Part shown: positions 5,130 through 29,184 of the stretch, piece by piece
Numbering within the stretch: the first letter of the stretch is position 1
Layout: each line of letters opens with the position of its first letter
IMG/VR virus record: IMGVR_UViG_3300032116_000713
Span: 1-34,770 of that record
Length of the DNA stretch: 34,770 nt
DNA from: a virus
Strand: one strand, 5' to 3'
Position numbers and translations under genes: made by a program
The notes under the pieces: model-generated
Told to the model about the DNA's origin: nothing
Database searches by the model: none
Seen by the model: only the letters and a program-made list of their open reading frames with translations

Positions 5130-5146
5130 AAGCTTAGGTAAAGCTT
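5130..5146 (-). terminator. Weak hairpin at the end of the 334-aa fibre gene
   Basis: Two AAGCTT copies (5130-5135 and 5141-5146) separated by 5 nt can form a 6-bp stem. The hairpin overlaps the TAA stop of the 334-aa gene, and the minus strand continues TTGG. It sits just before the late promoter motif of the next gene, where a terminator would make sense. The stem is short and the T-run minimal, so this is tentative. Confidence 0.2.
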
Positions 5147-7261: not shown

Positions 7262-7960
7262 TTATCCTATGCTACTTAAATTGGTAAGGGTTTGTATTCT
7301 AATAGTGTAATCAATTTGTATTAATCGATTCAAACTTTTTTGTACAGGATGGAAAATAACATGCGTTAATAATTTTCCAGTGGTAGTAAGACCCGAAGTG
7401 CCGTCGTTACTCCTTGCTTTAAGACCCAATTCATCAAACGTGTATGTGTCTTCGAGTGTAGTGCTGTTGTCAAAGGCACTTTGCCCTAGAGGTTCCCCGT
7501 AGTCTAATAAACAAGAAATAACAATATCACTATAAACACGACCAGGAACGTGCCGAACTTCCATTTTGTTTCTAGTAGGATCAGCATTTAAAGCACTAGT
7601 ATTATCTACAATTTTTGCAAAAGTTGGATTGTATAGATTGCTATTGCCTGTGTTTGTATTTGGCGGCAAATAGTTGATGATTCCAGTTGGATCTACACTG
7701 GTTCCACCATTTCCAAAATGCATTTCAAAAATATAACTTTGTCCTTTATTGGCTAACGTATAACCAATGGCTTCACTTATATTTTCGTAATGAATAGCAT
7801 TGCGTTTTTCTATAAAAACTTCGCCCGATTCAGGGTCAAAAATCTTTATGTGACCCTGCACGTTTATGCCGCCAATTTCATCTGGCTTAATATTATTGTC
7901 TTTATCTTGGTCTGAATTTTCCATTTTTGATTCCATATTACTATTTAGTGAGGTATTCAT
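7262..7960 (-). CDS. Conserved baseplate/tail structural protein (gp8-position), 232 aa
   Basis: Recognisable segments are 'INVQGHIKIFDPESGEV' with 'KRNAIHYENISEAIGYTLAN' (about 28-72), 'FEMHFGNGG', 'TRNKMEVRHVPGRVYSDIVI' and the C-terminal 'LLTHVIFHPVQKSLNRLIQI'. From memory, this set marks a conserved virion protein of marine T4-like phages encoded next to the giant baseplate gene. The synteny (after gp6 and the giant gene) puts it where T4 has gp8, but I see no convincing similarity to T4 gp8 itself, which is also longer (334 aa). The gene overlaps the giant gene by 4 nt (ATGA), a sign of coupled translation. Methionines at residues 9 and 13 are alternative starts, because the first ~25 residues are polar and probably disordered. 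Confidence 0.65.
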   Translation of the reverse strand: MNTSLNSNMESKMENSDQDKDNNIKPDEIGGINVQGHIKIFDPESGEVFIEKRNAIHYENISEAIGYTLANKGQSYIFEMHFGNGGTSVDPTGIINYLPPNTNTGNSNLYNPTFAKIVDNTSALNADPTRNKMEVRHVPGRVYSDIVISCLLDYGEPLGQSAFDNSTTLEDTYTFDELGLKARSNDGTSGLTTTGKLLTHVIFHPVQKSLNRLIQIDYTIRIQTLTNLSSIG

Positions 7961-10900: not shown

Positions 10901-13900
10901 TTAGATTGCACCGATGTTGCATTAAAATTACTTGCATAAACATTGCCTGATGTCGAGTAAATGTCGTTATTAAACGAAATGTAACTGTTAATTGGATATA
11001 TGGTATTCACTAACCAAGGTCTTGCATTAGCATTTTGTGGAAGATAAACTTCATTTTCATGTGCAACTAAATTTCCAGACACAATATATAAATTGCCTGG
11101 ATCTAAATTATCACCTGATATTGCAATATTTGAATAAGAGGTATTTGGCGTCCAAATTACCAAGTTACTATTGTAAGTTGTTCTGTCAAATTTTAATGAG
11201 GTTACAATATTTTTTACCAAGTTATAACTTAGATCACTTTGTAACGGATAAAATTGATTTTTTAAAATTGGATAAGCTGTTGCTCCTGAGCCGTCACCGT
11301 TAATTACTACATTGGGTGCAAATGTGTATCCACTACCTGGATTAGTAATTGTTATACCTGATATAGATCCGTTTGAATATAAGGTAGTCAGCGCCGATGC
11401 GCCTGTGCCTCCTCCGCCTGTAATTTCTACATTTGGAGGGAAGGTATAATTTAATCCTATGTCTCCAATTATAAAATCTACAATTTGAAATTTGTAATTG
11501 TTTGCCCAATCAGAATAGATTGGTTGATCAAATAATTCATTATCGAATTGATTACTTATACTAGGACTTCTGAATTGATCAAAGCGAGCATCATATACAC
11601 TTGGTAAATCAAAATCAGTGATGTCACTATCTAAATTATCTTGTTTAAAATAATTAGGAATATATTCTTTTATCTGAGTCCTATATGGTTTAACTTCGTT
11701 AATATAGTCATTGTAAAAATCCTGATTATCTCTTGTGAAATTTGGAAATTGTTCTAATGCTCTTAAATTATGAACGACGTCAATTAAACTAGTTTTGATT
11801 ACCCAATCTGGACTTTTTTGTTCAGTGAAAACATAGTTTAACATTGCAAAGAACAAATTGTTGAATTCAACACTCAATTCATCTGTCAGAATCTGTTGAA
11901 CCATTCCGTCAAAAATAAATCTAAATTCAGTAGTTGGAATTGGATCATATCCAGAAACATCGTAGGTTGTAGTATCATATCCTCCCCCAAGTGAAGGATC
12001 GTATAATCCTCTGTTTAATTGTAATGTACCGTTTTGAGCACCAATTAGAGATAAACTTGAATCATCCTGTATTTCATACAATAACCAAGTTCCATTACCA
12101 CCATCCAATATTTTGATATAGTCACCTACTGCCGGACTAATTGTCTGTATCTCTGCGAATGTATTGAGAGTATAAGCAATTGTGGTACCAGATTGATAAA
12201 CGGCGTCATACCAGTCAAACGCAGTCCAATACAATGTTGATTTGTAACTTTGTATTGTTGAAAGATTAAATTCCCCTGTTGTATCATTAAATGTATAAAT
12301 TGTCCATTTACCATTGTGATTAGTATCACTGGGCACTAGTATTTTGTATCCATTTGGCAATGTGGATGTATCTATATAATTTAGATTATCAACACTGTCT
12401 GTTTGTTCATCAAATCCAGAAACTGGCAAAGGTTCTTCTGCCTTCAATGAAGTAGGTGTGCTTAATAGTAAAATAGGATATTTAACTAATATTAAATTGA
12501 GTGTTTCTACATACGTGGTAATAGCTGTGTTTCTATTTACTACCATAGATTGTCTTGGCAAGAGGCTAACACCTAACTTGTCTTGAGCACTTAATGCGGG
12601 ATCAGGAACAATAGCTCCTAGTTCGTCGAATCCGGCCAAACTATCTTTAAGTTTATTAATTATTTTTGTTGGCAGATTTGTAAGTGAAGCCCCCTGCTGT
12701 ACTAGCTGCCATTCGGTATGTATTAAATTTGTATTTCTTATTTGTGCAAGATCAAAATGAACAGCAACGTTTTCGCCCGACAATTTATCTGATATATTGT
12801 ACAGACCAACTGCATTAGGCGCTAATAGAGCGAGATAAGGTATATTTTGATCTTTGGGACTGGTAATGTAATTCTGTAAAGCCAACGCACTAATAGTTCT
12901 TTTGGTCTTAAGAACATCAACGTTAGTTTTTCCTACAACCCAATAGTAATACTTTTGTGTTACAATTCCAGTAACTGGGTCAATAAAAGTTACAGATGAA
13001 TATGCAGAATTATCAGCATATCTAGGAACTCCATCCCCCACTGCATTCACGTACTGGCTTGGTAAAAATTCGCTTTCTACCCATTCAAAAATTCTTACTT
13101 GGCTTCCTGGAAATAAAGAACCCCAGTTTTTGATTCTGTACGTGATTTCATCTTGTTCATAATCAATAAAACTTATTTGCTTCAAATCCCACCAGGTCCT
13201 ACCAACTTGTTTGTCTGACCAATAAAAATTTGTATTATTAATTGTATCAGACCTATTAGATTGATTGTAACTAGCAGGATCATATTCTTCTTTATAGTCT
13301 AGTTCTTGATCTACAACTCCTAACAATTTTCCTTTAGCTGGGTCAATATAATCAAAAAAATCTAAAATCTGTTGTGAATTTACATTATATAAAAAAGAAC
13401 TTAAAACAGCATTAGTATCAACTCTTGGTTGGCGTAATCTTGACAACGTCCATCCACTTTGTTGATTTTCATTGTAAAAATAAAAAAGTTCTCCGTTTTC
13501 ATTTGATACAGTTCTTGCATTTGATAATCCTGCTATCAAATATTTTCCATTCAAAACAACACTTGAACCAAAATTAACATTATCATCTAGTGCTGGTCCA
13601 AAAAGTTTTTGACTGTAAGCAAACAGTGATGGATTATCTACGTTTTCATTGGGATTTTCTAATAAATCATACACATATACAGATCCGCTATCTTTTAAAA
13701 TATCTACAAAGTTTGTGGTATTGCCATCAAACGTAGTAATTATTGGCAACCCTTGATCAAAACTTATAGGCAAGTCATAATCACCGCCCTCACTTCCTAC
13801 TACTAGAACTCCAGAAGTTTGATCAACTGCGATACTGGTTCCGTAAAATTGTTGCTCATTTTCAGGATGTTTGAACACCTGTACAAATTTGTAATCTTCC

Positions 13901-16900
13901 AAACCAAGATCCGCTAATGGAGTTCCTTGGTTACCGTTAAGTATGTTTAACTTGTTTCCTATAACTGTCACATCGCTAGTGATTTTAAGTTTTCCACTTT
14001 CATTGCTAGCGGTTACTCCTGGAATAAGTGCTTGATTGATATCTGTTACAACATTTGTCAGCTGCGATCCTGAAAACTGAACTAATCTATCATTTATAAT
14101 AATACTTTGTCCAGGTGTCACAGTTGGATTTGTCTTCGTGGATAGAATACTTCCATATATTCTTCCCACGTTTAAAAATCTAGTTACTAGACCTTGATTG
14201 TAATCAGTTTCGATATAGGCTGAACTTACAACATAAATGTTACAACCGCTGTTACACATAGCCAGACCGCTACCAAAGTTGTCACCTTGTAGGCCTGACA
14301 ATGATGAGTATAATACTTGATCAAAAACAAACTGATTGGTTTCAACAAATACTTTTCTACGTGCCGCAAGTAACGATGATCCAGGATCTCCAAAAGTAAT
14401 CTGAGAAGGATTAATAGAGGTAATTGTGTAGTCTGCATCTACCCCTACTGGTTTATTTGTGAAATCATACTGCAGAACTCCATCTAAATAAACTCTATAA
14501 AAATTACCAAAAGCATCAGGCAAATTAAATGTATTTGATGAACCAGTAGTAATTAATTCTGTTTTAGTTCTATGATAAACAAATACCGCCCCTGCACCGC
14601 TTACGTTATTGACCGGTGTGTTACTAGCCCCAACTGCAATTACTGATCCATCTGAATTGCAAACTACCGCAGATCCAAATTGACTGTTTTCAGCAACTTC
14701 AGATGCCTTTGGTAAAGTTTCTAAAAATATATATTTTTCTACCGGCTTGGTCACTGCAATGATAAGGAAGCTGGCTGGAGGAGTTGTAAAAACTAGGTTG
14801 GTTACAGCACCTACAGCAGTAACGGTAATTGTAACATCATGAACTCCTGATAACCCACCAACAGTTGCGCCGTCGATAGTCAGAACATCTCCGACCAAAT
14901 AATCTACACCTGCGTTTTCTAAAACCAATGTATAATTTGTTGATGCAGAACTATATGAAACTCTGAACTTAGCTCCAGTGCCACTGCCACCTGTTGCAGT
15001 TCTGTTGTAATAGAATACTTCTAGTGTAGCTGCAGGTCGTGATCCGGTATGTGTGTAACCTGTTATTCCAACTAAAACTTTAGTGATGTTAATAGTTAAA
15101 CCGTTTGTTATTGATGACCCGCCTAGCACCTCACCAAGAATACTAATAGTATCATTTAACACATAGCCTTTTCCAGGATTGTTTAGTGTGACAGTATATA
15201 CTCCGCCTGATCTACTTACATTAAAGGTTGCACCGGTGCCGCTGCCTCCGTCGGCCGGAACGTTTGTATAGCTTGCTGTTCCGGCTGCGGCAGTTCCTGA
15301 AAATGTAAATGTTACAATTGAAGCTCTTTTGGTGTTATCAAGACTATAATCAATGTAGGGAAGAAACTGACCAGCAATAATAGGTGCCGATACAATAATA
15401 TCCGTTTCATTATCTATTAATGCCAATAGACTCAAAGTGGTAATAGAACCATTATCTGGTTGTATTAATTCTTGAACAGCAGACTGTCTTTCGTAATCAA
15501 TGGCGTAACAATAAACTTTATCGGCACCTGGTGCTCCAACATATAGATATTGAGCATCATCGCTTAGTGCTAATGAATGACCAAACATATCACCTGTGGC
15601 ACCAGATTCTGCGGTCAATATACACATTAATTGTCTGTCTTTATAAACATACACAACACCGGTATCGTTGGCCGCGGTTGGGTCACTTGCTATTAGATAA
15701 CTGTTAACATTATTCTTGGTTCCAGTCCTAATTACTTTACCAAATTGATTAATTTGTGAATAGATGTGATTGCTAAACAATGAAGCTCTTATAGCAAAAT
15801 CATCCTCGGAATCTCTAGAATAAACACCTATTCTACCTGATCCAGAATCCGGAGCTGATGCGTAAAGATATGTTGATGAGAAATCCAATGCTATTGCACT
15901 ACCAAAATGATCAAAACCTGCGTATTGATCCAACTGTATTGTATCTCTATATTCCCAAGGATCAGTTTTAGTATAGACTCCCCAATTGTCTTGATCATCA
16001 ACAGTTTCGACCCACACTTTATCATTTTTTACCAGCCCTGAATAAGGTGCGTAATTTACAATATCTAATGGAGTAGAGAACTTGCTACTTGTTAATTTAT
16101 ATAACAACCCTTGTCCAAGAATAGCTTGACTTTCAATTAATTCTTGTAAATTAACATAAATGGTTGCTAAAAATCTCGTGTCATCAATGATAGATTGCAC
16201 AAGATACATCCCGTTATATCTAGGATCAAAATTTTTCAAAGCAACTATATCATTTTCTTGCAAACCATGTGGTGCATTGGATACAAATTCTGCCTGTGAA
16301 TTAACATGATAACGCAGAATAAAAATTAAACCAGGTACCGGAGTGGCTCTATAAACATTCCATTCGTCGTTAAGATCTCTAGCGGTCCAAATAGTGTAAC
16401 CTATCCCGATTTCATTGGCTATTTCTCTATAGCTTTCATAATTTTTTATATCAAATACTGTATTATCAATATCATCTAAATGTACAAAACCCGCCACTGG
16501 TAAGGGTTTGAATTCAACTGGTTGATCATAGTCAACTGTTTTTAGGAAATCAACTTGAAATGCGCCACTTTGTCTATATACAGATTGTTGTGTAAATGTT
16601 TTAATATCTACGTCAGTGTTCGATTCAACATCAGCAAGCTGGAACACTGATGGATTATTTCTAAAAAATTGTTCTGGTAAAATAAACTCAAGAAAATTAT
16701 TTGTTTCTAAAGCACCGTATTCGCCCACTCGAATGGCCCAATTTTCAAACACAGTTACCGGTTGAGTACCTAAATTATTAAATTGTGCCCCTTGCAAAGC
16801 ATCAATCGCATTTAGAGTTCCGCTTTGTTTAATTAATCCTTGGTAAAATTTTGATTGAGTTGTAACATCAATGCCTAAATTTGTAAAATACTCTCTTGGT

Positions 16901-19900
16901 CTAAAACCTATTAATCCGTTGCTAAACAACTGTATTTCTTCATTGATTGGTTGATCATTGATATCGTAGTATTTCAATGATTGTGAAGCGTTTGTAGCAA
17001 AATTGTTTATCAATCCTGATCGTAATTCATTGCTGTCTATTTTTTGCCAAAATGCAATTTGAAAAGTGTCGGCCGCAATGATGTTTTGCAATGCTGTGTA
17101 AAACGAAGATTTATAACTTACCAATGATCCTTTAAGATAATCACTACCAGGAAGCCATTCTGGAACCGTTTCACTGCTGAAAATATATCCTGGTAATTCT
17201 AAACTTCCATTCCATAATCCTGTTTTATTGCCAACCAGTTTCAGTCTTGATTGCCTACTTCCTGTTTCAGGAACATAAATTACATCATTAAAAACTGTTG
17301 TGTTATCTAACAAAAGTAAATGTTCAAATTGAACAAAATCAAACGTGGCAAAGCCAATAGTTTCATTTTCAATACATTTGATTGTAAATAGTCCATTATC
17401 TCGTGTGACGGTAAAGCTATTTTTTCTAATAGCTTTAGAATTGATATCAAGAATACGACTACCATATGCAGACCCGGTAACTTCGTCGATGATTGCGGTC
17501 GGGTTGAAAATTTTGATATAATCACTAACAGGGCTCAGAACCAATACATTACCAGTTTTCCAACCTTGATTGGTCCAATGTAAAAATTCTTTTGCACTTA
17601 ATGCCCAATCTTTCTTTTCTTTTAAAAAGCTGTCTCTTTCATCAAATACAAATCCTTGAAGTGTAAGATAACGCTGATAGCTGATTAAAAAATCAACTAA
17701 TTGTTGTTTTTTTGTAAATTCAAATCCATATGGTATGGCTAATCTTTGATTTTTAAAATCCTGATAAACCACCGCAGTAGCTTCACCCACTTGAATATTA
17801 TATGAATTATTATTTGCAAGACTTGGTACAATTATAAAATAGGGATTTCCTACATCATATCCGCTGACCGTATAACCATTTTCTGTTTTTTCAACTATAA
17901 CAGCCGAATAGGATAATTTGTCTAATGGAGCCCCTTTATATAATTCAATGCTGTAATTTTCGTCAGGAATGACAACACTGTTATTAATACTGCTAGGACT
18001 AAATTGTTCGGCTAATAAATTAATAATTTTTTTGTCCGAAAAACCTGCCATTTTATAACTTAGTTGAATGCTTACTAGTTCTAAGTTATCTTTTACAAAC
18101 GTACTGGCATCATTAATACCAAGATTTTTAGCATAATCAACAATCCAGTTAATGTATCCGGCAGATCTTTCAATAGTGTTGTCTGCATTAGGATATCCGT
18201 TAATTTTAACGAGGCCGGGCGTTATATGGCTGTTGTTTTCAACCAAAAACTGAGAAGTTGCTAAATTCCTATTGTAATTTTGAATATCCAATAGTAATCC
18301 AAAATATTTTGCAGGTTTAGCAATCGCAAGTGCAAAATGTAAGGCAAAGGGAAATTCAGAACTTCTGCGCCAGGCCAATTCAGATGGGCCAATATCTCCT
18401 ACTGCAAAACTAAGATTAGCAGATGCACTGTCATAATCAGTGGCTAAAAATTCAGTAGGGCTACGCAAATTTCCATTATCATCAACCGGAATAATAGATG
18501 TTAAACTAGGTCTGCTGTATCTTAAATCTAAGCCGGCTCTTGGTCCAGAATGAATGTAACCTGCTTCTAAATCGCTCCATAAAACAAAGTTACCGCCTGT
18601 GTATGGAGCTGGTCCATATCTATCATTCCAATAACTGGGTTTTTCGCTAAACCCTAACATTTCCCATGGGTGAGTATGAGGTCTATCTGTATCATAAAAA
18701 TATCTGTAGATACTACGCCACGTACCTGGGAAATTTTCTCCATTAATTATATCTCGGAATTTTTTTAAATTCCAAGTAAATGGATCACTTGCTGTGAATG
18801 TACTGTTTGTTGTATAATTGACACGATTAGTACCAGCCCATCTTAAAAAATCCTGACTGAGTAGTTGATTGATTTCCTGTAAATTATAATCTAATACCCT
18901 AAATTTGCCAGGAATATAATCATTAATGTTAAACAAATTTACATCATATTCTACTTTTATATTATTGTAAATTCTTTTTTCTAATTCTAAAAGTAAATTG
19001 TCTCTAAAATCTCCAAATGCCACAGTGAGACTTCCGTCATGTCCTTGAATTACCGGCACAGGAGTTCTATAGGTATTGTCAGTATATATTTCCGGAATAT
19101 ATTTTGGATATAAACCTAACTTGGTAGGGGTTTCTGGAATATAACTTCCGTCTGTATTACCATATTCAACTACTGTAATAATGTCGTCTATTAATAATGT
19201 AAAAGACTCAACAATGTTGATTGCTGGACGGGTTTGATCAAATGTGTAATCTCTGTTTTTAATTAATAACTCTGTGGTGGTAATATTGTCAAGTGTTCGT
19301 GTTAGATAAACTAAAACAGCCTTGTTACTAACCACAGTGTCTTGAAAAATATTTGTTATTTCATATGTTCTTATTTCTGGATCAAAAACAGTATAGCTCG
19401 GCAGCGTAACTTTATTACTCTCCCCATAAGGAACCATGTCGCTAAATTGCCAAGGAAAATTGCTATTCTTAACGCTGTTTATTCTCAATAAAATTGTATC
19501 AACAGCGGCGGCGATGTTTTGTCTATCAAACTCTAAGTTTGCTGCATATTCAAGAAATTTTTGTTTGAATTTTGAATATTCTTTTGATGCCAATCTTAAA
19601 CTATCAACAAAATTCATTGTTGGATGATTTAAAAATAAACCAGAATATACTACCGGGGCACTGTGCTGTAAGATTGCTCCGCCGCGATTGGTATAAAAAA
19701 TATCTCTTAAATTGCTTTTACCAGGAACTGATCCTTCAATATCAAGGCTGTTATTTTTAAATGCAATCAAATGATTACGCATTTGTCCAAGAGTTAGCTC
19801 AGTGGTACTGATGTTCAATGAATTGATATCTAAATTTAAAGGAACTTCATAAAAAGCATTTCGTGAAGTTTCTTGTGAATTAAAAATACTAACAAAAACA

Positions 19901-22647
19901 GCATCATTAATTTGCAAAAGATCCGGATTGACTAGAAGTGATAATCTTTCATTTATTTGAGTGATGGCAAAATTTCCGTTTTCTACTCTAACATTATTAA
20001 TAGTAACTTTGATATTAGGACTATCCAGTGTTACATCAGGAAGGATATCAATAGGGAACAAGTTTGTAGTTCCGTCATAAACAAAATTAAAAATTTGATA
20101 TTGTTTGCTAAAACTTAAGTTTATTTGCCAAATATTAATCCTACTGCTGGTCGTTCTTGTAATATTTTTTTGTAATAAACCAGAATTTATAGTACCAGTT
20201 AGTTCAAGTCCGGCCGACGATCTATAAGTAAAGGAGTCTATATCAAAATTATTTTCAAAAATTATATCGCCTTGAGTGGTCAAATTTCTATAACTGATAG
20301 GAAATCCTAAAACATTATCATTGGTACCAGAACCTACTTTATATGAAAATAATTTTGTGCCTTGGAAATTAGACTGAGGATAAAAAGAATTATCGCCTAG
20401 ACTGACACCATCGCTGTTTATGATGTCAAATTTGGGTGGTTGATTTATTGAAGTTTTTTGTTGTGACTCGACCCAATTGACCCCATTAAAATGCCATTGT
20501 TTTGCTCCGTTGGAACCATAATTAACTGGTACTGTGTGCCCATCTTGGATAGTAGAATCTTCAGCCTCTTCAAAATAGGCTTTATAAACATTTACAGGAT
20601 TGGTAGCAAATAATTCTATACTAAAATTATAAATTTTATTTCTTACATTTAGATCTTCATCTGCAGTAAAAACTATTCTATCACCATTGGCAAAAGTTAC
20701 AGTCTGAGTGTCTTGAGCTTGCCCTGTGCCTGTTACACCTTGAGTTGCAATAAATTCTGTGTTTAGTCCAAACCCGCTAGGAGCTCCAGCAGCCGCCCAA
20801 TTTGTATTTCCAAGAGAAGTGATCCTATATGTTCTTCCTGGTCTTAAAAATTCAGAATTTATAGTTACACTAAATGTTGCCTGAGTAGGTGCCGTGGGCG
20901 GTGAATAATTAATTATTACACCTTGAACCTGTTGATAAGCATTTGTAATTACATCATCTAAAACATCAATAGCAGCCTTGGCCTGTGTTCCATAATTGAA
21001 TAATTGAAGATCAGGATTGAATTCAATGATTGGACGTTGTGCCCGTAAATTCTGATTGATCAACAGTTGAGTATTGTTATACTCTGCTGTCTTTTCCAAA
21101 ATATTTACATGAAACCATCTATTACTTCTTGACCATGCATTGTTATCAATCGAACTTCTATTGATAGTAATGTAATCAGGATTAGATAAATCATTATCTA
21201 ATTCGGTAGAAAATAATGTATTTGCTTCTACAAGTTTTATAGATGTGCCTACACCTTCTACATAATAGGTATTATTTGTATAAGGAGCCACAGCAGTTGA
21301 ATCAAAAGTTATCTTTAATCCATTTGTGAATGTAATACCGTTAGGACTAACATAATTTTTTTGTCCTACAATCTCAGTTGCCGGATCAATAGTAAATGCA
21401 TTGTAATCTACTAATCTTATAACCCCAACAGCATTGTCAGACTGATCGCTTTGATAATATAAAAAATCCAACGCTGCTGTTAATGGCGGAACCTGGTTAA
21501 AAATATTTGATCGTTTGTAAAACTCTCTGCCAGTGTTTTCTAGACCAGATATAATTCTTACCTTACTTTCATTTTGAACACTAAATTTTATGGTCAAATA
21601 TAAACGCAAATCTCCTTGTGCATCTGGATAAACACTTGTTTGAAATATGCTGGTTCTTGACTCAAGAGGTACAACAACATCTTGATCGAGATAGATTACG
21701 TCATCAATCACTCTAGCAGTATTGTGCCAATATTGTTCATCTATGTATTCATTATTGACAAATACAATTGATAAGTTATCAAAAGAAGTAGAAGCGCCAT
21801 CAAAGCCGCCTAAATTTACCAGATCACTTATCAAACAACCTTGTAAATCTTGATAACTCAAACTGGTTGCATAATTAACCTGATCTACTATCGGCATCAA
21901 TGTCCATTCAATTTGCGCAGTAGCAGATGGCACATCAAAAGTTACCGAACCTGTGTCCTGTCCATTGTTAGACACACCTAATACATTTCTAGTTTCTAAA
22001 TTATTTAGATTTGGATCAAAGCCGGATACCCCTGGTTTAGATTGTATAAAAAATTTGTTGCCGGGTTCATTGATATTAAATGTATATGATCCTCCACGAG
22101 CTAAAGTTATTAATGGATTGGTAATAGCGTTAAAACCACTTACCGAATATGAGCCCTTTGTAGCATCATAGGTAATATCAAAATTTGCTTCAGTTGGTAC
22201 ATCGGCTGCACTAATTATTATTTCGTCTGGGCCGTTCTCTAACCAATAGTATTGAACAAAATTAACAAATTTATCTAAATCAATTTGAGGATCATAGGAA
22301 TAGAATTCATTATCAAACAAGCGATTATGATTGTTATCAAAGCCACCGTAATAATTTATTTTGTTAGTGATATCTGCATATGTAGTTGCAAATTCTAGCT
22401 TTTCATTTACTGGATTTTTGATGACTATCGTGGGTTCGACTTGATAATTTTGTCTGTCTTGAGTGGGTTCTGTAACATAACTGTCCGTAACTTTAAATGA
22501 AGGTGCTAGTTTTCTTCCAATATAGCCAGAAACTCTAACCAAGTTTGGCTCACTTAAAAGTTGATCCGTTGTAGCATTGAGAAACTTTTTGTTAGTTTCT
22601 GTCCTAAAAACTTCTGGTAAAAATTGTAGAGTTTTAAAAACCGCCAT
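7957..22647 (-). CDS. Giant multi-domain baseplate/virion structural protein, 4896 aa
   Basis: One uninterrupted frame encodes about 4900 residues. The N-terminus (LQFLPEVFRTETNKKFLNA, then 'SEPNLVRVSGYIGRKLAPSF' and 'YYGGFDNNHNRLF') matches, from memory, very large virion proteins encoded after gp6 in marine T4-like phages. Domains in order: a cupredoxin-like beta segment (about 175-243); a GTGTG-type module (600-648); a CBM-like W/G/Y segment (about 1828-1870); an FG-GAP-like beta-propeller (about 2240-3070) with two GTGA repeats inside it (about 2465-2620); a third GTGA repeat (about 3727-3793); 'INGEKIHYYQK...QLRRGVDGTG' (about 4250-4370); and two C-terminal repeat families. There is no signal peptide or transmembrane segment. 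AGGAATAATAATG is a good ribosome binding site and overlaps the gp6 stop. T4 has gp7 and gp10 at this position (1032 and 602 aa); functional replacement of one or both is inferred. Confidence 0.85.
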   Translation of the reverse strand: MAVFKTLQFLPEVFRTETNKKFLNATTDQLLSEPNLVRVSGYIGRKLAPSFKVTDSYVTEPTQDRQNYQVEPTIVIKNPVNEKLEFATTYADITNKINYYGGFDNNHNRLFDNEFYSYDPQIDLDKFVNFVQYYWLENGPDEIIISAADVPTEANFDITYDATKGSYSVSGFNAITNPLITLARGGSYTFNINEPGNKFFIQSKPGVSGFDPNLNNLETRNVLGVSNNGQDTGSVTFDVPSATAQIEWTLMPIVDQVNYATSLSYQDLQGCLISDLVNLGGFDGASTSFDNLSIVFVNNEYIDEQYWHNTARVIDDVIYLDQDVVVPLESRTSIFQTSVYPDAQGDLRLYLTIKFSVQNESKVRIISGLENTGREFYKRSNIFNQVPPLTAALDFLYYQSDQSDNAVGVIRLVDYNAFTIDPATEIVGQKNYVSPNGITFTNGLKITFDSTAVAPYTNNTYYVEGVGTSIKLVEANTLFSTELDNDLSNPDYITINRSSIDNNAWSRSNRWFHVNILEKTAEYNNTQLLINQNLRAQRPIIEFNPDLQLFNYGTQAKAAIDVLDDVITNAYQQVQGVIINYSPPTAPTQATFSVTINSEFLRPGRTYRITSLGNTNWAAAGAPSGFGLNTEFIATQGVTGTGQAQDTQTVTFANGDRIVFTADEDLNVRNKIYNFSIELFATNPVNVYKAYFEEAEDSTIQDGHTVPVNYGSNGAKQWHFNGVNWVESQQKTSINQPPKFDIINSDGVSLGDNSFYPQSNFQGTKLFSYKVGSGTNDNVLGFPISYRNLTTQGDIIFENNFDIDSFTYRSSAGLELTGTINSGLLQKNITRTTSSRINIWQINLSFSKQYQIFNFVYDGTTNLFPIDILPDVTLDSPNIKVTINNVRVENGNFAITQINERLSLLVNPDLLQINDAVFVSIFNSQETSRNAFYEVPLNLDINSLNISTTELTLGQMRNHLIAFKNNSLDIEGSVPGKSNLRDIFYTNRGGAILQHSAPVVYSGLFLNHPTMNFVDSLRLASKEYSKFKQKFLEYAANLEFDRQNIAAAVDTILLRINSVKNSNFPWQFSDMVPYGESNKVTLPSYTVFDPEIRTYEITNIFQDTVVSNKAVLVYLTRTLDNITTTELLIKNRDYTFDQTRPAINIVESFTLLIDDIITVVEYGNTDGSYIPETPTKLGLYPKYIPEIYTDNTYRTPVPVIQGHDGSLTVAFGDFRDNLLLELEKRIYNNIKVEYDVNLFNINDYIPGKFRVLDYNLQEINQLLSQDFLRWAGTNRVNYTTNSTFTASDPFTWNLKKFRDIINGENFPGTWRSIYRYFYDTDRPHTHPWEMLGFSEKPSYWNDRYGPAPYTGGNFVLWSDLEAGYIHSGPRAGLDLRYSRPSLTSIIPVDDNGNLRSPTEFLATDYDSASANLSFAVGDIGPSELAWRRSSEFPFALHFALAIAKPAKYFGLLLDIQNYNRNLATSQFLVENNSHITPGLVKINGYPNADNTIERSAGYINWIVDYAKNLGINDASTFVKDNLELVSIQLSYKMAGFSDKKIINLLAEQFSPSSINNSVVIPDENYSIELYKGAPLDKLSYSAVIVEKTENGYTVSGYDVGNPYFIIVPSLANNNSYNIQVGEATAVVYQDFKNQRLAIPYGFEFTKKQQLVDFLISYQRYLTLQGFVFDERDSFLKEKKDWALSAKEFLHWTNQGWKTGNVLVLSPVSDYIKIFNPTAIIDEVTGSAYGSRILDINSKAIRKNSFTVTRDNGLFTIKCIENETIGFATFDFVQFEHLLLLDNTTVFNDVIYVPETGSRQSRLKLVGNKTGLWNGSLELPGYIFSSETVPEWLPGSDYLKGSLVSYKSSFYTALQNIIAADTFQIAFWQKIDSNELRSGLINNFATNASQSLKYYDINDQPINEEIQLFSNGLIGFRPREYFTNLGIDVTTQSKFYQGLIKQSGTLNAIDALQGAQFNNLGTQPVTVFENWAIRVGEYGALETNNFLEFILPEQFFRNNPSVFQLADVESNTDVDIKTFTQQSVYRQSGAFQVDFLKTVDYDQPVEFKPLPVAGFVHLDDIDNTVFDIKNYESYREIANEIGIGYTIWTARDLNDEWNVYRATPVPGLIFILRYHVNSQAEFVSNAPHGLQENDIVALKNFDPRYNGMYLVQSIIDDTRFLATIYVNLQELIESQAILGQGLLYKLTSSKFSTPLDIVNYAPYSGLVKNDKVWVETVDDQDNWGVYTKTDPWEYRDTIQLDQYAGFDHFGSAIALDFSSTYLYASAPDSGSGRIGVYSRDSEDDFAIRASLFSNHIYSQINQFGKVIRTGTKNNVNSYLIASDPTAANDTGVVYVYKDRQLMCILTAESGATGDMFGHSLALSDDAQYLYVGAPGADKVYCYAIDYERQSAVQELIQPDNGSITTLSLLALIDNETDIIVSAPIIAGQFLPYIDYSLDNTKRASIVTFTFSGTAAAGTASYTNVPADGGSGTGATFNVSRSGGVYTVTLNNPGKGYVLNDTISILGEVLGGSSITNGLTINITKVLVGITGYTHTGSRPAATLEVFYYNRTATGGSGTGAKFRVSYSSASTNYTLVLENAGVDYLVGDVLTIDGATVGGLSGVHDVTITVTAVGAVTNLVFTTPPASFLIIAVTKPVEKYIFLETLPKASEVAENSQFGSAVVCNSDGSVIAVGASNTPVNNVSGAGAVFVYHRTKTELITTGSSNTFNLPDAFGNFYRVYLDGVLQYDFTNKPVGVDADYTITSINPSQITFGDPGSSLLAARRKVFVETNQFVFDQVLYSSLSGLQGDNFGSGLAMCNSGCNIYVVSSAYIETDYNQGLVTRFLNVGRIYGSILSTKTNPTVTPGQSIIINDRLVQFSGSQLTNVVTDINQALIPGVTASNESGKLKITSDVTVIGNKLNILNGNQGTPLADLGLEDYKFVQVFKHPENEQQFYGTSIAVDQTSGVLVVGSEGGDYDLPISFDQGLPIITTFDGNTTNFVDILKDSGSVYVYDLLENPNENVDNPSLFAYSQKLFGPALDDNVNFGSSVVLNGKYLIAGLSNARTVSNENGELFYFYNENQQSGWTLSRLRQPRVDTNAVLSSFLYNVNSQQILDFFDYIDPAKGKLLGVVDQELDYKEEYDPASYNQSNRSDTINNTNFYWSDKQVGRTWWDLKQISFIDYEQDEITYRIKNWGSLFPGSQVRIFEWVESEFLPSQYVNAVGDGVPRYADNSAYSSVTFIDPVTGIVTQKYYYWVVGKTNVDVLKTKRTISALALQNYITSPKDQNIPYLALLAPNAVGLYNISDKLSGENVAVHFDLAQIRNTNLIHTEWQLVQQGASLTNLPTKIINKLKDSLAGFDELGAIVPDPALSAQDKLGVSLLPRQSMVVNRNTAITTYVETLNLILVKYPILLLSTPTSLKAEEPLPVSGFDEQTDSVDNLNYIDTSTLPNGYKILVPSDTNHNGKWTIYTFNDTTGEFNLSTIQSYKSTLYWTAFDWYDAVYQSGTTIAYTLNTFAEIQTISPAVGDYIKILDGGNGTWLLYEIQDDSSLSLIGAQNGTLQLNRGLYDPSLGGGYDTTTYDVSGYDPIPTTEFRFIFDGMVQQILTDELSVEFNNLFFAMLNYVFTEQKSPDWVIKTSLIDVVHNLRALEQFPNFTRDNQDFYNDYINEVKPYRTQIKEYIPNYFKQDNLDSDITDFDLPSVYDARFDQFRSPSISNQFDNELFDQPIYSDWANNYKFQIVDFIIGDIGLNYTFPPNVEITGGGGTGASALTTLYSNGSISGITITNPGSGYTFAPNVVINGDGSGATAYPILKNQFYPLQSDLSYNLVKNIVTSLKFDRTTYNSNLVIWTPNTSYSNIAISGDNLDPGNLYIVSGNLVAHENEVYLPQNANARPWLVNTIYPINSYISFNNDIYSTSGNVYASNFNATSVQSNVALVTQFDFTRFSRIQDGNVLLNALDRITAFYEPTVGMPGKNINELVSGTKYPASKVIGPTFRSNAFEVTSDIISFNYDGLTINSGNTAQFDFLDLGFDINKTIRIEAAVPFDFQNNGYFRIVGVDRDTMILTGQPVETTYKVTLNQNINADVGDYLTQANSSGNAWVLKSVTNSNQIDIIYSTPGFLPVLAGNVYANLQISKNGIPLNANVTSISNFDKTFTPIASGGNVEVTIAYLDQDYIVDSNIYSTYLDTDLGTRPEDINIVGGAYFDIYSSHAPEELIPGRLYDALEMRVFSNTVADTATYGYRVFQPMSANIDYHRISGNATTTLSNNLLYTDQEILVSDVTKLPEPNVPAGIPGVIYINGEKIHYYQKYDSVKLGTAIPWTANTIIAKNSLIVINSNTFLTLGNVFANSVPYINTSNIQLIKNNSLRQLRRGVDGTGISANVVSGNLVSDSSLIQLIPDAQITGTQTITGNLHVTSNASYKAVLTAPITASIGDYITQFTGNAGNARIIGGNVKGYRLFLSGTTSQLEGNVITQFGTSNATATIVETVNNSTTLIVTPNSRFISSLVDPVYINNKLTSLYITKVEKDIIEDDVVVVDIVSPGLWATANLDYTLTLSNVITANKNDYLTQFYDKDIYLMELSSPITSNVGDYITQFQGNTYRLELDKTISANIGDYITQFEGNLTNLKVIDANVVSNFVNVQFVTANVQNLKFATNIGTRVNIANLYSFGGSVFSNTSANIVSIYQNSFSPNVAGVGNVNVVVAVNSINSNVVPVRFITGDTTVFKTAANVGTRVNIANIKANTFNFTTANIVGITVAPNVQTIFRVRSNVNSSLSVPVEFITGNSITLKFGTNVATRLIDSNNFITNANVVSISLEGFGSNVLGNTQTRIGVVSNALGVVTTTANILTLQPIGSLTFTNNIEYPRTLLSNGNVVLSGVSTLRSNIWEQFGVTLENSTTTAAQFIREQTSYIP
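8195..8800 (-). repeat. Protein-coding tandem repeats (GTRVNIAN type) near the giant protein's C-terminus
   Basis: Three to four imperfect repeats of about 65-75 codons occur here. Each has a strand like 'PVEFITGN', then '(T/A)NVGTRVNIAN', then 'ANIVSI' and a valine/asparagine-rich segment. The GTRVNIAN core is seen at about 8700-8740 and 8470-8520, and in a diverged form (ATRLIDSN) at about 8275-8330. They probably form a chain of small beta-domains. Confidence 0.6.
8831..10458 (-). repeat. Dispersed protein repeat 'I(T/S)xNxGDY(I/L)TQF' in the giant gene
   Basis: The motif occurs at about 10415-10458 (NADVGDYLTQA), 9370-9417 (TASIGDYITQF), 8979-9028 (TANKNDYLTQF), 8902-8945 (TSNVGDYITQF) and 8831-8880 (SANIGDYITQF). 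A decayed form (GNVITQF) lies near 9270-9300. The last three copies are nearly tandem. They are diverged at DNA level, so this is an old protein-level duplication rather than a fresh DNA repeat. Confidence 0.6.
13437..15930 (-). repeat. FG-GAP-like beta-propeller repeats within the giant gene
   Basis: About seven to eight repeats share the pattern FG-(S/H)-(A/S)-(L/V/I)-A ... YLYVGAP ... G-x-V-(Y/F)-V-Y. Clear copies begin HFGSAIAL (near residue 2245), MFGHSLAL (about 2350), QFGSAVVC (about 2655), NFGSGLAM (about 2785), FYGTSIAV (about 2930) and NFGSSVVL (about 3020). This is the repeat of integrin-type FG-GAP propellers. Most copies lack the DxDxDG calcium loop. One blade region is expanded by two GTGA-type repeats. 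Confidence 0.65.
20705..20850 (-). repeat. GTGTG-type module, copy in the giant protein (residues ~600-648)
   Basis: This segment encodes PGRTYRITSLGNTNW followed by a glycine/alanine turn, then 'NTEFIATQGVTGTGQAQ'. It matches the pattern G.(T/S)Y.I.S.G.T.F...GA....G..F.A...GTGT also found in gp6 and in the 874-aa protein. Confidence 0.65.
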
Positions 22648-22655
22648 TATTATTC

Positions 22656-25600
22656 CTACGTTACATTAATGTTTAATTGTGCTGCTGTTATCGCTGAAAT
22701 GACTTGTACATTATCCACTGTGGCTGCGCTTACTAAAATTTCATCCGGGTCTGCATTGATTTGATATAAATTTCCAAATTGCGAACTTGTATCTGCTGGC
22801 ACAATTACAATGCTGCTTACATTAGGAACCAAAGATGTATGTAGGTAAGCACTTAACTCGCTAAAATAAAAAGTTTCGCCAAAGTCCCAATTATTAATAT
22901 TGAAATAATCATTAATGGCTGCAATTACCTGACTTTTAATTTCGTTATCGCTAATAATAATGTTTGGATTTTTAACAACTTTAAAAGTTGATCTTAAACT
23001 TGGTTGTGCTTTATTACCAAACAAAGGTTTAAAAACAGCAGGATTATAAATTATGCTGTCACTCACTGTTTTGTAAGATTCAATTGAACTAAATTCTGTT
23101 TGTAATTCAGCAGCAGATGGCGGAGTTGGCTCTGTAATTTTTCCGCTAGAGTCATTGATATAGGCAAAATAATCATCAGAATAACTCTTTGTAAGAATAT
23201 AAAAATCAATCAAGTTATTAGGACTAGGATCAATACGTCTTGTGTTAGGTGCATTGTGTCTATATTGAAATTGTAGATTTTGTCTTCCAACAAAAGCTAT
23301 ATAGGAATCAGATTGAGTTATGGTTGTACCATCAGACACATAAAACAATTGATCTTCAAATGCATAAAAAATTGTTCCAGGTGCATACAAAGAAATAAAA
23401 GTTAAAATTTCATTTTCAGTGTCATATTCACTTACAACATCACTTTGGTTCAATAAATCGTATTGTAAAAAATCGTATTGATTTCTATTTTGAACAAAAT
23501 AAACTAATTTGTTACGTGCATTTACTGAAGGTTCGATAAGCCGAACAAAAAGATCTGGGTTATCTGGCACTTCGTCTAAATTGTCATCAGGAAAAGTTAC
23601 TCTTATTTTTCTATTGTCTTCTGTTCCATTTGTACCAAATGCTCTTTCCCAAATACGATAAGTTTGGCTGTAATATAAAGCATCGCTAGAGTCTGGCAAA
23701 GTGTTTGTACGCAACACTTTAATGCTATCAACAAGAGTAGTTGCTGTTCTACTATCATAAACCCTAATGTCTGGATCAAAGTAGAATCTAGTTTCTCTTT
23801 CACTTTGAAAATAGTAATCTATTCCCCTACTGACTGCGGTATATTGACCGTTTGAATATGAAAGACTTAAAAACCAACTGTTGTCTAGTGCAGTTCCGGC
23901 TGTACTACCAGCATTGGTCAAACTGAAATCGCCTGTGCCTAGATTTTGACTTTCAATTATTTTCCATGATAATGATGGTATATCATATCTAAGTCCAAAA
24001 GTTTTGAAACTCAAAATTTGAGCTACAATATCTGATATCAATGATTCTGACCAATCGTTGGCAAACACCGGAATAATTTCACTTACAATCGCTCCGGTAG
24101 GTACTACTACACTCAATGTTGCTGTCTCGGCAGGCCCGGGCACGTCGTAATTTATAATGCTGGCCCATAATTCGGTTCGTTGAAATTCGGTGGTAGGAGT
24201 TCCAGTTTGTATTTGATTTTGAGCATCAAAATACTTGCCAGTAGGCGGTACAAACTTTACCAAACTACCTTGCACAAGAAACGTATAAGCAGGGCTTGAA
24301 AATCTGCCCAGACTACGCCCACTTGCAGCTTGTGTTTGTGTCCAACTTGGCATAATTGCAACTGTTCCTGTGCCTGTTCCTGGTGCAGTGGCTTGAAACA
24401 ATGTTCCCACTGCATTGCTAGTTGCACCAACAGTTGTAAATAAAGTAGTTCCGGTTGATACAATTTTATAACTTGTTCCTGCGACCATGGCAGTGGCATT
24501 TATTGTAGCACCAATTGGACTTGATCTAGTTGCACTATCATAATAAAGATGACTGCTGGTTTTACTAGCAATTAATGGCTTCAACACATTTCTGACAATT
24601 GAATTTACTTCGATACTGCTAGTAAATTGGAAATATTCTGTTTCTGCATAAGATGTATCTTTGTAAATTATTCCGTCTTCGGCAAAAATATTTGTGCTTG
24701 AGTATTTTCCTGTAGTATCAATAACATCAAGATATCTACTTGTTCCAGAACTTGTCCTATTCACAGCTTTTAATTTTAAGATATTACTAAATGTAGTGAA
24801 AGGCAATACATTATAATCCTCGCCGGTGACCATACGATTTTGTGTATAGTACTGTTGAGGAGCATTTGTTCTGATGCTGTCTAATGATTCTCTTGATATA
24901 GCATTTGATACTGTATATTGCAGGCTTGCTCTGACAGTTAATGTTTCTGCTCTACCTGTACGACCTCTATAAGGAATACTGATTGTTATTCCAGACATTT
25001 CGTCAGGAGTAATTTTGTATGTTAAATTGTTTCCAGTTCTATAATAAACTCTAAAATTGCCAACTGGAGAGTTAGTAAAACTGCCATCACCAAAAACTAA
25101 ATCAATTTGATCATTTGCTCTTGATGCAACGCTATACAGATTTCTCTCTGCAGTGTTGTTGTAAATTACATTTATTCCATTTACTGCAGGAACCTGTGTC
25201 CAAATTGTATCCAAGGATCCATTAGATGCAAGACTGTACAGCCACACATCTGTATTATTAATGTTGTCAAAGTTGATATTAACAATTCTATTTGGTAAAT
25301 TTTCTGTTATAACAAAGTCAAGATTGTTTAGGCTTCCTTGTTTAAAAAAGAAAAAGAAACCTGTATTATTGCTTGCATTTCCTTGATTATCGTTTTTATA
25401 TAAAATATTAAAATTGCCGCCGGGTATAGGTGCAGCTTCGTAAATATATTCTTGATTTAAACTTGTGGCGCTTACAATTTCAAATGGATAATTTACTCCA
25501 GATACTGCTGCTGAAAATGGATAAGTTGGTATCAGGCCAGACAATGTAGATACTGTATATTCATCTACTTTAACATTGTTTAAAGTTTTTGATGATGCTG

Positions 25601-26165: not shown

Positions 26166-26546
26166 TTATGTGGCTGCTAAACTATTACTATCGCGATCAA
26201 ATTGTATTGCTAGTACATCACTGAGATTGTCGGGCAGGAAAGTTAGTTCAATTTGAATTTGTAGGCCATATTCGAATTGATCAACCAGCACATTATCTAC
26301 TCTCAATCTTGGATCATAGCTGACGACACGTTGAATATCAGCAACTACAAGTGCTTTGACATCTGCAGTTAAGGGTTCGAATAGTACATTCCAAATTATG
26401 CTGCCAAAATTTGGATTCATTAATTTTTCACCTTTTCTAATAGAAAAAGTGTTAAGTAAATCACGTTTTATCAATTCCAAATCAGTTAATCTGAATTTTT
26501 TGTATTGATTTATAGTGCTGAAACCTCGGTATCTAGTAATGGCCAT
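26166..26546 (-). CDS. gp25: Baseplate wedge protein gp25 (GPW/gp25 family), 126 aa
   Basis: gp25 is the wedge protein that links the baseplate to the first sheath ring in contractile tails. The protein starts MAITRYRGFSTINQYKKFRL. It continues with 'LELIKRDLLNTFSIRKGEKL', 'MNPNFGSIIWNVLFEPL' and an amphipathic helix leading to 'SYDPRLRV'. This is the GPW/gp25 signature, with DPR in place of the usual EPR. Its length is close to T4 gp25 (132 aa). The ATG at 26546-26544 is preferred: it gives the expected N-terminus and lies 13 nt after the preceding stop. An in-frame TTG at 26630 would add 28 unrelated residues overlapping the upstream gene. No clear Shine-Dalgarno is visible, so coupling to the upstream gene is likely. 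Confidence 0.9.
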   Translation of the reverse strand: MAITRYRGFSTINQYKKFRLTDLELIKRDLLNTFSIRKGEKLMNPNFGSIIWNVLFEPLTADVKALVVADIQRVVSYDPRLRVDNVLVDQFEYGLQIQIELTFLPDNLSDVLAIQFDRDSNSLAAT

Positions 26547-26559
26547 AAATGTATTTATT

Positions 26560-29184
26560 TTACGCTGTGAAGGAAAAAGTTCCAGTGTTTGTATAAGTAT
26601 GTAACCAAAATGTTGTTGGGCCCGACACAAATGAAGTTACTGTACCGCCTGAACCACGTTGAGTTGTACTTGCATAATAGATTATAACTACTCCGCTACC
26701 ACCGGCACCGCCTGCTGATCCTGGTTCAGAGGTGTAACCGCCACCACCGCCGCCACCACCAGTATTGCTAACGCCGGACCCTCCTACCGTAGAATTACCA
26801 CCTGTAGTAATACCATCACCACCACCGCCTATTCCCCCTACTCCTCTTACAGGTCCGTTGAATGCGCTACCACCGCCACCAGCTCCTACGTAATACGCTC
26901 CGCCTGAGAAAGATCCCACAGTTGAGCCCGGAATGGGATTAGTAATACCAATACCACCATTTCCGCTGGCTAAACCGGTTGCACCAGCAGCACCAGCTCC
27001 ACCACCGCCGCCTGAACGGTCGGCACCACCTCCGCTGGATCCTCCAGCATTTCCATAACCAATTGCTATGCCTGAGCTTGTTTGTGTTGCTGAACCTCCG
27101 GCGGCGCTAGGACTAGATCCTGCACGACCACCACCACCGCCTGATCCCCCAGCTTTACCTACACGCTGGTCTGTACCGGCTCCTCCTCCGCCGCCTTGAG
27201 CAATGAATCCAAATACGCTGGAATCTCCCCCGTTAGTTCCATCTACTGCGAGGCTGCCGGCTGGACCATTACCACCAGGACCTCCAGCACCTACTATCAC
27301 GGTGTAGGTTGTACTAAGGGTTACTGGTTGCGACAATCCGCCTATCATGACGCCGCCACCTCCACCGCCGCCTCCAATACGGCCTCCACCCCCACCTCCT
27401 CCGGCAACAATAACGAATCCAACCGAATAATTAGCACTTGCAATTGTTACCCATGCTCCGCCTACATAGACTTCAACTGATCCACCATTAATTGAAGTGT
27501 TGTACCTAATCATACCATTAACCAATGTGCCTGGTCTTTCTCCAGTGGTGCCGCCGGGCAGAGTCCAAGCACCGGTACCCGACACAGTTGACCCGGCACT
27601 TAGATAGGCTGCGACATTAACATTACTGTAAGGATCGCTGCTAAATGATTGTCCGTTTCCAACCCAACGAACTCCTTCGGTTACGTAGGTTACATTTGAA
27701 AAAACATTGCCAAGTATTAGGTTAGCACGTTGTGCAACATTTCCCGCTAAAATAATACTTCCACCGGCTTCGTTAGTAATAACTACGTTTGATTGATTAG
27801 TGCTAATGTTAGCATTACCTAAATTAATAGACGAACCCGAAAGCCATAAATCTTGAAATCTATTTGTAGTATTTCCCAAATTGAAAACTACGTTTTGTCC
27901 TGGAATTATGTTTCCGTTAATAATTAAATTACCAGTAGAAGCAGTGATGTTACCAGTGGTTATAATGTTCCCACTGGTAATAATATTATTACTAGCTATA
28001 ATATTACCGCTAACAGTTAGATTGCCTTCAACCGAAGCATTAATGCTGGTGCCAATTACAACACTAGGGGCAACTGGTGGTGTTAAAACTTGTGTTATTG
28101 GGACTATAACTTCGCCCGGTGTATCTCCACCTATTACATCAGCACCAAGTGTGGCTATAGCGTATCTACCTGCATTAAAATAGATATGTCCCGGACGACC
28201 TTGACTATCTACAGTTTGTCCTGTATTTCTCCATACATTAGCTCTATGACCAACTGAATAGTTTTCAACATTGATTGTGCCATCGCTATTGATTATGTTC
28301 TGAGCTAGATTTGGATTGCCAAAATCTTGGTACTGATATGCCAATGCCAACATTCCAGCTACTACGTCTCGAGTGTCTCCTACTCGTATAGCTTTACTTC
28401 TTATTAGCTCGATATATTTTTCTTCTATATAATTTTTTTGAATTAAATCTTGTATATAAGTTGCTGACAAAAATACATCATTGCTATCTATACCATCTTT
28501 GCCTGTCCATGCGCCGTTGGCCTGTAAATAACCGGCATTGGTCAGAAGAGTTTGTGAAGCTTGATACTTGCCAAGTTTTAATGGATTAACAAAAAATCTT
28601 ACAGTACCTGTAACTGTGTTATTACTAGCTAAAATAATTTGATTATTTGAAGCACTGGCGGTACCTGTGCCAGTACCTGCTGTGTTAGCAATAAACACAT
28701 TACCAATTACATTTTGACCTCCAACTGCACCAAAGTCTGTATCGCCTACACTGGTTACAGTATATGTACATCCCACAACAAAATTACCAGCAACTATATT
28801 GCCACCAACAGATTTGCCTACTATCAATGTGTTATTGCCAAAACTTCCGTTGCTACCTACAGTTAAATTTGCCACTGATCCAATCTTGATATTTGTGTTA
28901 TCTAGATTAGATATGGTCACTTGAGTTTGCCCGGCTGTAACGTTACCAACAAACACACCCTGTTGAGGATTTCCAACTGTGACTAATGTTGAATTTGAAT
29001 TACTTTCTAGTTCTCCAAGTTGAACCAATAAGCACTTGATATCAAATCTACTTAACGTAGGTATTCCGGATTGAAATTGGCTAAGATTAATACCCACAGG
29101 AGCATTAACGTTAGCCAACAGTGCTCTAGGAGCCGGACTAACCACTGAATAATTTGCTGCTAGTTCTATACCTACATTGCTCAT
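26560..29184 (-). CDS. Lysozyme-like module fused to fibre shaft and glycine-rich tip, 874 aa
   Basis: Three regions can be seen. (1) Residues ~45-350 resemble the lysozyme/transglycosylase-like domains of tail proteins: 'LLVQLGELESNSN' (E58/E60 candidate acids), 'KLGKYQASQTLLTNAGY' (203-219), 'WTGKDGIDSNDVFL' (226-239), 'VAGMLALAYQ' and 'WRNTGQTVDSQG...YFNAGRYA'. Between the first two motifs about 130 residues are inserted (72-203), containing a GTGTGT module. (2) Residues ~380-545 are a fibre shaft with 'GNI' repeats and 'NLGNTTNRFQDLWLSGSSI'. (3) Residues ~588-874 are a glycine-rich domain ending 'WLHTYTNTGTFSFTA', like adhesin tips. The gene overlaps gp5 by 4 nt (ATGA), so production is coupled to the hub. 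Cell-wall digestion plus receptor or surface binding is inferred; catalytic activity is uncertain. Confidence 0.65.
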   Translation of the reverse strand: MSNVGIELAANYSVVSPAPRALLANVNAPVGINLSQFQSGIPTLSRFDIKCLLVQLGELESNSNSTLVTVGNPQQGVFVGNVTAGQTQVTISNLDNTNIKIGSVANLTVGSNGSFGNNTLIVGKSVGGNIVAGNFVVGCTYTVTSVGDTDFGAVGGQNVIGNVFIANTAGTGTGTASASNNQIILASNNTVTGTVRFFVNPLKLGKYQASQTLLTNAGYLQANGAWTGKDGIDSNDVFLSATYIQDLIQKNYIEEKYIELIRSKAIRVGDTRDVVAGMLALAYQYQDFGNPNLAQNIINSDGTINVENYSVGHRANVWRNTGQTVDSQGRPGHIYFNAGRYAIATLGADVIGGDTPGEVIVPITQVLTPPVAPSVVIGTSINASVEGNLTVSGNIIASNNIITSGNIITTGNITASTGNLIINGNIIPGQNVVFNLGNTTNRFQDLWLSGSSINLGNANISTNQSNVVITNEAGGSIILAGNVAQRANLILGNVFSNVTYVTEGVRWVGNGQSFSSDPYSNVNVAAYLSAGSTVSGTGAWTLPGGTTGERPGTLVNGMIRYNTSINGGSVEVYVGGAWVTIASANYSVGFVIVAGGGGGGGRIGGGGGGGGVMIGGLSQPVTLSTTYTVIVGAGGPGGNGPAGSLAVDGTNGGDSSVFGFIAQGGGGGAGTDQRVGKAGGSGGGGGRAGSSPSAAGGSATQTSSGIAIGYGNAGGSSGGGADRSGGGGGAGAAGATGLASGNGGIGITNPIPGSTVGSFSGGAYYVGAGGGGSAFNGPVRGVGGIGGGGDGITTGGNSTVGGSGVSNTGGGGGGGGYTSEPGSAGGAGGSGVVIIYYASTTQRGSGGTVTSFVSGPTTFWLHTYTNTGTFSFTA
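28650..28795 (-). repeat. GTGTGT module, copy in the 874-aa protein (residues ~130-178)
   Basis: This segment encodes VGCTYTVTSVGDTDFGAVGG followed by 'IGNVFIANTAGTGTGTASAS'. It is nested between 'LTVGSNGSFGNNTLIVGKSV' and 'NNQIILASNNTVTGTV'. Those flanks look like the two halves of another small beta-domain, itself inserted in the lysozyme-like region. Confidence 0.65.

Follow-up and report, generated by a model that had tools for sequence, protein, structure and literature searches.

A lytic-transglycosylase-like domain, probably displaced from the gp5 spike, split by an insertion and joined to a fibre in a small branch of phages

In phage T4 the hub spike gp5 carries a wall-cutting domain (PMC4576200), and the question raised by the locus described here is where such an enzyme lies when gp5 itself has none. 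The window analysed, meaning the whole stretch of DNA, is the 34,770-base virus record IMGVR_UViG_3300032116_000713 from IMG/VR. Its gp5-like hub/spike protein, P0002 (29181..30677, minus strand), resembles the gp5 of the jumbo phages PA5oct (33%) and Atu_ph07 and Phosso (both 27%) and consists of an OB domain (PF04717) and a DUF2345 beta-helix (PF10106; phrog_13211), without an enzyme domain; domain and PHROG profile scans of this gene returned no lysozyme match, in agreement with a preliminary description of the DNA made from its letters alone. The start codon of the next gene overlaps the gp5 stop by four bases (ATGA, 29181-29184). This gene, P0001 (26560..29184, minus strand, in the open-reading-frame listing), encodes 874 residues comprising a split lytic-transglycosylase-like domain, a fibre shaft and a glycine-rich tip, and it is followed by the baseplate wedge gene gp25 (26166..26546, minus strand; PF04965, E 2.7e-11), gp6 (P0004; phrog_10646, E 3e-296) and P0007, a baseplate protein of 4896 residues (7957-22647, minus strand). 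In the last of these, residues 2344-2377 also match an FG-GAP repeat (E 1.5e-6), and CBM_5_12 is matched below the threshold.

The preliminary description had proposed that P0001 contains one lysozyme-like domain in two pieces separated by about 130 inserted residues, and both parts of this proposal are borne out: residues ~30-61 and ~203-350 are confirmed as one domain, split by an insertion of that size. The N-terminal piece (residues 1-61; 29002..29184, minus strand) ends with the catalytic-helix motif E60-S61, part of the GELES at residues 57-61, and the C-terminal piece (residues 203-350; 28135..28578, minus strand) begins with LGKYQ at residues 204-208 and further contains W226, A282-Y283 and Y335. 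The insert (residues 66-202; 28579..28989, minus strand) separates motif I (ES) from motif II (GKYQ), so that S61 and G205 are 143 residues apart in P0001 and 143-160 in its clade, as against 13-19 in 21 aligned insert-free relatives. The insert is also absent from L119, a relative whose gene in the equivalent position runs directly from the ES to the G-x-Y motif (MESGNN...GPRFGRYA). A hidden Markov model (HMM) built from insert-free relatives alone matches P0001 at E 3.4e-28 (Z = 1000) in two consecutive stretches, which in the clade alignments end just past ES and at the end of the domain, respectively (model positions 13-51 and then 71-189 in the near-identical relative L106). Two side observations concern the same region. 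The L119 gene (6593-8098) carries another insert, of roughly 270 residues, in a loop further along the domain, which makes this a second site of insertion. In most relatives a further GxYx-like motif (e.g., GIYK or GIFK), possibly duplicated from motif II, is found near the start of the insert between motifs I and II; the profile extends clearly through this motif only in L116 and L112.

Further relatives were obtained by tblastn with the joined flanks of the insert, which match the gp5 tail-lysozyme region of T4-like phages of Rhizobium, Agrobacterium, and Sinorhizobium, as well as the beginning of the Pseudoalteromonas phage pYD6-A virion RNA polymerase, all of them uninterrupted from ES to G-x-Y-Q. 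A scan of IMG/VR with an alignment of these uninterrupted proteins yielded 80 loci. Every insert-free alignment member (30/30) matches phrog_27932, 'baseplate hub subunit and tail lysozyme'; P0001 itself is not listed for this family at E 0.1 in a plain PHROG scan, which the split of the domain and the shortness of its first piece would lead one to expect. With the whole of P0001 as query, tblastn returned mostly Rhizobium gp5, and its C-terminal half returned cyanophage tip domains. A search of NCBIfam gave no match for P0001, phmmer against PDB sequences gave nothing relevant, and the insert-free profile found nothing among PDB sequences.

The fold of the domain is predicted to be that of the lytic transglycosylases (GH23/SLT, goose-lysozyme-like) and is not demonstrably that of the T4 gp5 (GH24) lysozyme. 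In an AlphaFold2 model of P0001 residues 1-352, block means of pLDDT lie between 72 and 97 for residues 1-61 (84-96 along the N-terminal piece) and 205-348, except in a loop near 291-310, and fall to about 27-47 for residues 62-200, where the model of the insert is unreliable. A model of L024, a relative without the insert, reached pLDDT 94.6 and pTM 0.91, and its VIA neighbours are Cj0843 (Z 11.9 over 144 residues), MltE (11.1), MltC (10.8), the T7 core protein (10.4), SLT70 (10.2), phiKZ gp144 (9.9), and the cod goose-type lysozyme (9.9). The best VIA neighbour of the P0001 model is a lytic transglycosylase too, MltE; the alignment bridges the insert and takes in 150 residues between model positions 4 and 352. 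Its Z of 8.6 is near the values that VIA describes as common for unrelated folds, the insert being weakly modelled, and what carries the case for P0001 is its sequence homology to the insert-free family. T4 gp5 does not appear among the VIA neighbours shown and may rank further down. Foldseek E-values are weak (0.01 at best), and with the P0001 model Foldseek gave no meaningful match, probably owing to the low-confidence insert, although VIA recovered lytic transglycosylases from the same model.

Given the weak Foldseek values, the fold call draws on the coherence of the neighbour list, on the motifs, and on weak family matches. Among the 30 insert-free relatives, PF06737 matches ten (best E 5e-4) and the C-terminal domain of aggregation-promoting factor matches 23, and endolysin PHROGs are matched as well; curated family models gave no lytic-transglycosylase match for P0001. 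Phage_lysozyme (PF00959) matches neither P0001 nor any of the 30 relatives but does match the gp5 of RaK2 and of Vibrio phage 2.275.O. In hhalign comparisons with phiKZ gp181 and gp144, the ES, GWFQF, and AHF motifs fall in register, at low probabilities of 28% and 15% that make these alignments supporting evidence and no more.

An origin of the P0001 enzyme as the gp5 enzyme domain, displaced to a gene of its own directly downstream, is supported by sequence comparison, as the nearest gp5 relatives outside the clade of the window carry the lytic-transglycosylase domain as their own C-terminus (residues about 500-710 of about 690-720). These fused proteins of uncultured phages (phrog_27932 type; IMG/VR loci L024-L035 and BFVD A0A6J5L6V6) share the domain with P0001 and have a core 35-41% identical to the window gp5, but differ from P0001 in having the enzyme attached to gp5 and in lacking insert, fibre, and tip. 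A tree of 41 gp5 sequences contains 21 fused to the domain, 11 split from it and nine with no such domain or with another lysin; as the loci were found largely by searching with the domain, the fused share should not be read as a population frequency. The window, its close relatives, and L119, in all of which the enzyme gene is separate, form one clade (support 100/99), and the simplest reading of the tree is a fission of gp5 in the ancestor of the window and L119, at the linker before the enzyme domain. In L039, whose place in the tree is unsure, the domain is also a separate gene, which suggests an independent split. Since L119 has no insert at the place in question, the insertion of ~130 residues most likely occurred after L119 branched off, and the order of events on the tree would thus be fission, then insertion, then fusion of a C-terminal fibre and tip in one small branch. 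A separate observation in this clade is that the gp5 reading frame of L003/L106 (2352-3848) is interrupted by a stop (169 + 328 residues), be it a sequencing error or real.

The fibre shaft of P0001 (residues 351-545; 27550..28134, minus strand) is 68% identical to that of L114 and 51% to that of L106 over residues ~351-516, and among the relatives seen it occurs only in these two and in P0001 with its identical or near-identical contigs L001 and L002. Beyond it, the glycine-rich tip (residues 577-837; 26674..27456, minus strand) matches PF21722 (Gly_rich_2) at E 1.7e-12, so that the shaft and adhesin-like tip described earlier on this chain are both recovered. Glycine makes up about 40% of residues 601 to 850, a content like that of Pam3 gp24 (39%), which together with S16 gp38 exemplifies glycine-rich receptor-binding fibre tips (PMC9608196); the likeness is one of composition, and unlike the tip of P0001 these two are not described as joined to a wall-cutting enzyme. 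The region before the tip (TTGERPG...NGMIRYNT) resembles tail proteins of cyanophages and of Methylophilales phage Melnitz. The L106 and L114 chains end at 519 and 529 residues and the glycine-rich part forms a separate 320-residue reading frame, which marks the tip as an exchangeable module. As at least ten distinct clade members in the equivalent position are 356-369 residues long, end at or just past '...RYAIRTLGAD' and have a split enzyme without a fibre, the fibre was not gained with the enzyme's move out of gp5. The earlier idea that wall digestion may have passed to a separate, surface-binding protein is upheld for the displaced enzyme domain, and its surface-binding part can apply only to P0001, L106, and L114. 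Elsewhere in the window are a second glycine-rich protein (5134-6138, minus strand; PF21722, E 3.3e-5), probably another tip or adhesin, and a fibre-like protein of 551 residues (3422-5077, minus strand) that is 28% identical to part of the P0001 shaft and has a weak match, below the cut-off, to the Peptidase_G2 autocleavage domain (E 0.0012).

The reading that we favour, with a probability of roughly 75%, is that P0001 is the peptidoglycan-cutting domain of gp5 on a gene of its own, with an insert beside its expected cleft and, in one subclade, a probable host-binding tip. By analogy with known virion-associated lysins, the protein would be carried at the baseplate hub, and upon tail contraction it would cut the MurNAc-GlcNAc bonds of the wall as lytic transglycosylases do, through a single catalytic glutamate (Glu60), to let the tube pass. 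With the enzyme no longer part of gp5, the trimeric spike would have puncturing as its only task, and the enzyme would be free to evolve alone. In the subclade of the window, the shaft and exchangeable tip probably bind the host surface and would keep the enzyme chain there, linking adsorption to wall digestion.

The insert itself was earlier described as a small beta-domain interrupted by a GTGTGT module. The module is real: about 50 residues long, it occurs in three copies in the window, at residues 127-177 of P0001 (28654..28806, minus strand), in gp6 (24360..24503, minus strand; HMM i-E 8.7e-17), and in P0007 (20716..20862, minus strand; HMM i-E 6.4e-18). In gp6, L119 and every compared protein from outside the clade have an empty site; in P0007, the window, L106, and L107 have the module, and the site is empty in L109, L111, L116, and L117. 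From these differing distributions it follows that the module did not enter the two genes at one time. Neither Pfam nor PHROG has a family that matches it, and tblastn with the module gave no match. The interruption is plausible: the module is found in every insert-bearing relative of P0001, and a search with the outer beta-domain alone confirmed clade members only, with no module-free version among them. We infer the nesting of the module in the outer domain, which is likely, from the clean insertions in gp6 and P0007.

The site at which this beta-rich domain with its module would have entered separates catalytic motif I from motif II and adjoins the presumed substrate cleft. Across 15 insert-bearing sequences, median dN/dS is 0.13-0.28 by region for both enzyme pieces and all parts of the insert, indicating purifying selection on all of them, and the insert thus probably adds a contact (with glycan, with a baseplate partner or as a lid) rather than breaking the enzyme. 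A more specific version, in which the insert serves to gate or aim the enzyme, as a lid or a targeting domain, and the GTGT module binds a partner common to gp6 and P0007, supplements the favoured reading and does not replace it. The position beside the cleft, the recurrence of the module in three baseplate proteins of one phage, and the constraint on the insert (median dN/dS 0.18-0.23 by region, about 0.2) are in its favour; the low pLDDT of the insert (27-47) and the module's lack of a Pfam or PHROG family weigh against it, and we hold it to be possible, if doubtful. A further reading, offered just as tentatively, has a single chain, receptor-binding tip included, sense the surface, position the cleft through the inserted domain and cut, with the GTGT module as a mobile domain spreading through several baseplate proteins of one lineage.

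A different view would take the lytic-transglycosylase-like domain to be catalytically dead or dispensable, serving as a fibre-docking platform in the subclade and as a structural piece of the hub in the others. The domain is N-terminal, and this is the end by which fibres usually dock on baseplates. Motif III, A282-Y283-Q284 in P0001, differs from the A-H-L of most relatives (pattern A-Y/H-N/L), and two relatives have lost the catalytic Glu. These two, L037 (5950-6537) and L039 (5923-6525), have Ile or Val in its place and may be inactive forms; the fold can therefore survive without catalysis, which lowers the certainty that P0001 is active. On the other side, E60, S61, Q208, and W226, along with G205, Y207, and Y283, are the same in all 15 insert-bearing sequences, where selection is purifying; these residues include the ES of motif I, which aligns with that of phiKZ gp144 and gp181, and the G, Y, and Q of motif II (G-x-x-Q; G205-K-Y-Q208 in P0001). 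Members without a fibre retain the domain as well, and all of this makes a dead enzyme unlikely. Least probable by far, and rejected here, is a chance resemblance to one lysozyme fold of residues 45-70 and 203-345 from different domains, a way in which the preliminary description could have failed: the N-terminal piece alone scores only about 6-15 bits, but both pieces are contiguous in L119 and the 21 aligned insert-free relatives, the insert-free HMM matches across them, AlphaFold2 models both at high confidence, and MltE aligns across the gap.

As a displaced gp5 enzyme, P0001 would belong to a kind of protein already known, the virion-associated lysins, of which phiKZ gp181, in the cell-puncturing device, is an example (PMC5380687, where baseplate lysins are reviewed). 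Both phiKZ gp181 and gp144 are enzymes of the lytic-transglycosylase type whose motifs (ESSFNY / GWFQF / AHFMGPAGARKF) align with those of the P0001 family, although they belong to other genes and architectures and the aligned part has no insert between motifs I and II. T4 gp5 fills a similar functional slot, but with a GH24 lysozyme between OB domain and beta-helix in one chain; here the OB domain and beta-helix are in P0002 and the enzyme is in P0001. The gp5 of the Rhizobium/Agrobacterium T4-like phages RL2RES, Atu_ph04, and P10VF has a homologous domain, annotated as tail lysozyme, but, unlike P0001, carries it without an insert, before the beta-helix of the same chain. A split gp5 has been reported for Atu_ph04, phiM9, and P10VF (PMC6630229), but this is not the split of the window, as the enzyme domain there is still joined to the beta-helix. 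In other jumbo phages, lysins are found at the gp5 C-terminus (GH24 in RaK2 and Vibrio 2.275.O) or just after gp5 (a Phage_lysozyme2 gene in Atu_ph07). RaK2 gp078 has its lysozyme after the beta-helix (PMC3622015), the order of the fused relatives, but the enzyme is GH24 with a weak M23-like region and remains fused to gp5. In Atu_ph07, the Phage_lysozyme2 protein lies two genes downstream of gp5, and gp5 itself (L015, 8905-11502) has, beyond a region containing GRYQ, a C-terminal trypsin-like peptidase domain (PF13365, E 6e-17). A gp5-derived lytic transglycosylase with a domain between its catalytic motifs, or one fused to a fibre, was not found in the literature searched, most subscription journals lying outside that search.

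For annotation, the locus corrects a trap, in that the wall-cutting enzyme here is probably the product of the gene after gp5 and not gp5 itself. Taken as a set, the loci form an ordered series within one phage group, from fused through detached and domain-inserted to fibre-joined enzyme, which makes the rebuilding of a spike testable. The relatives that lack the insert or the fibre provide natural controls for the effect of each addition.
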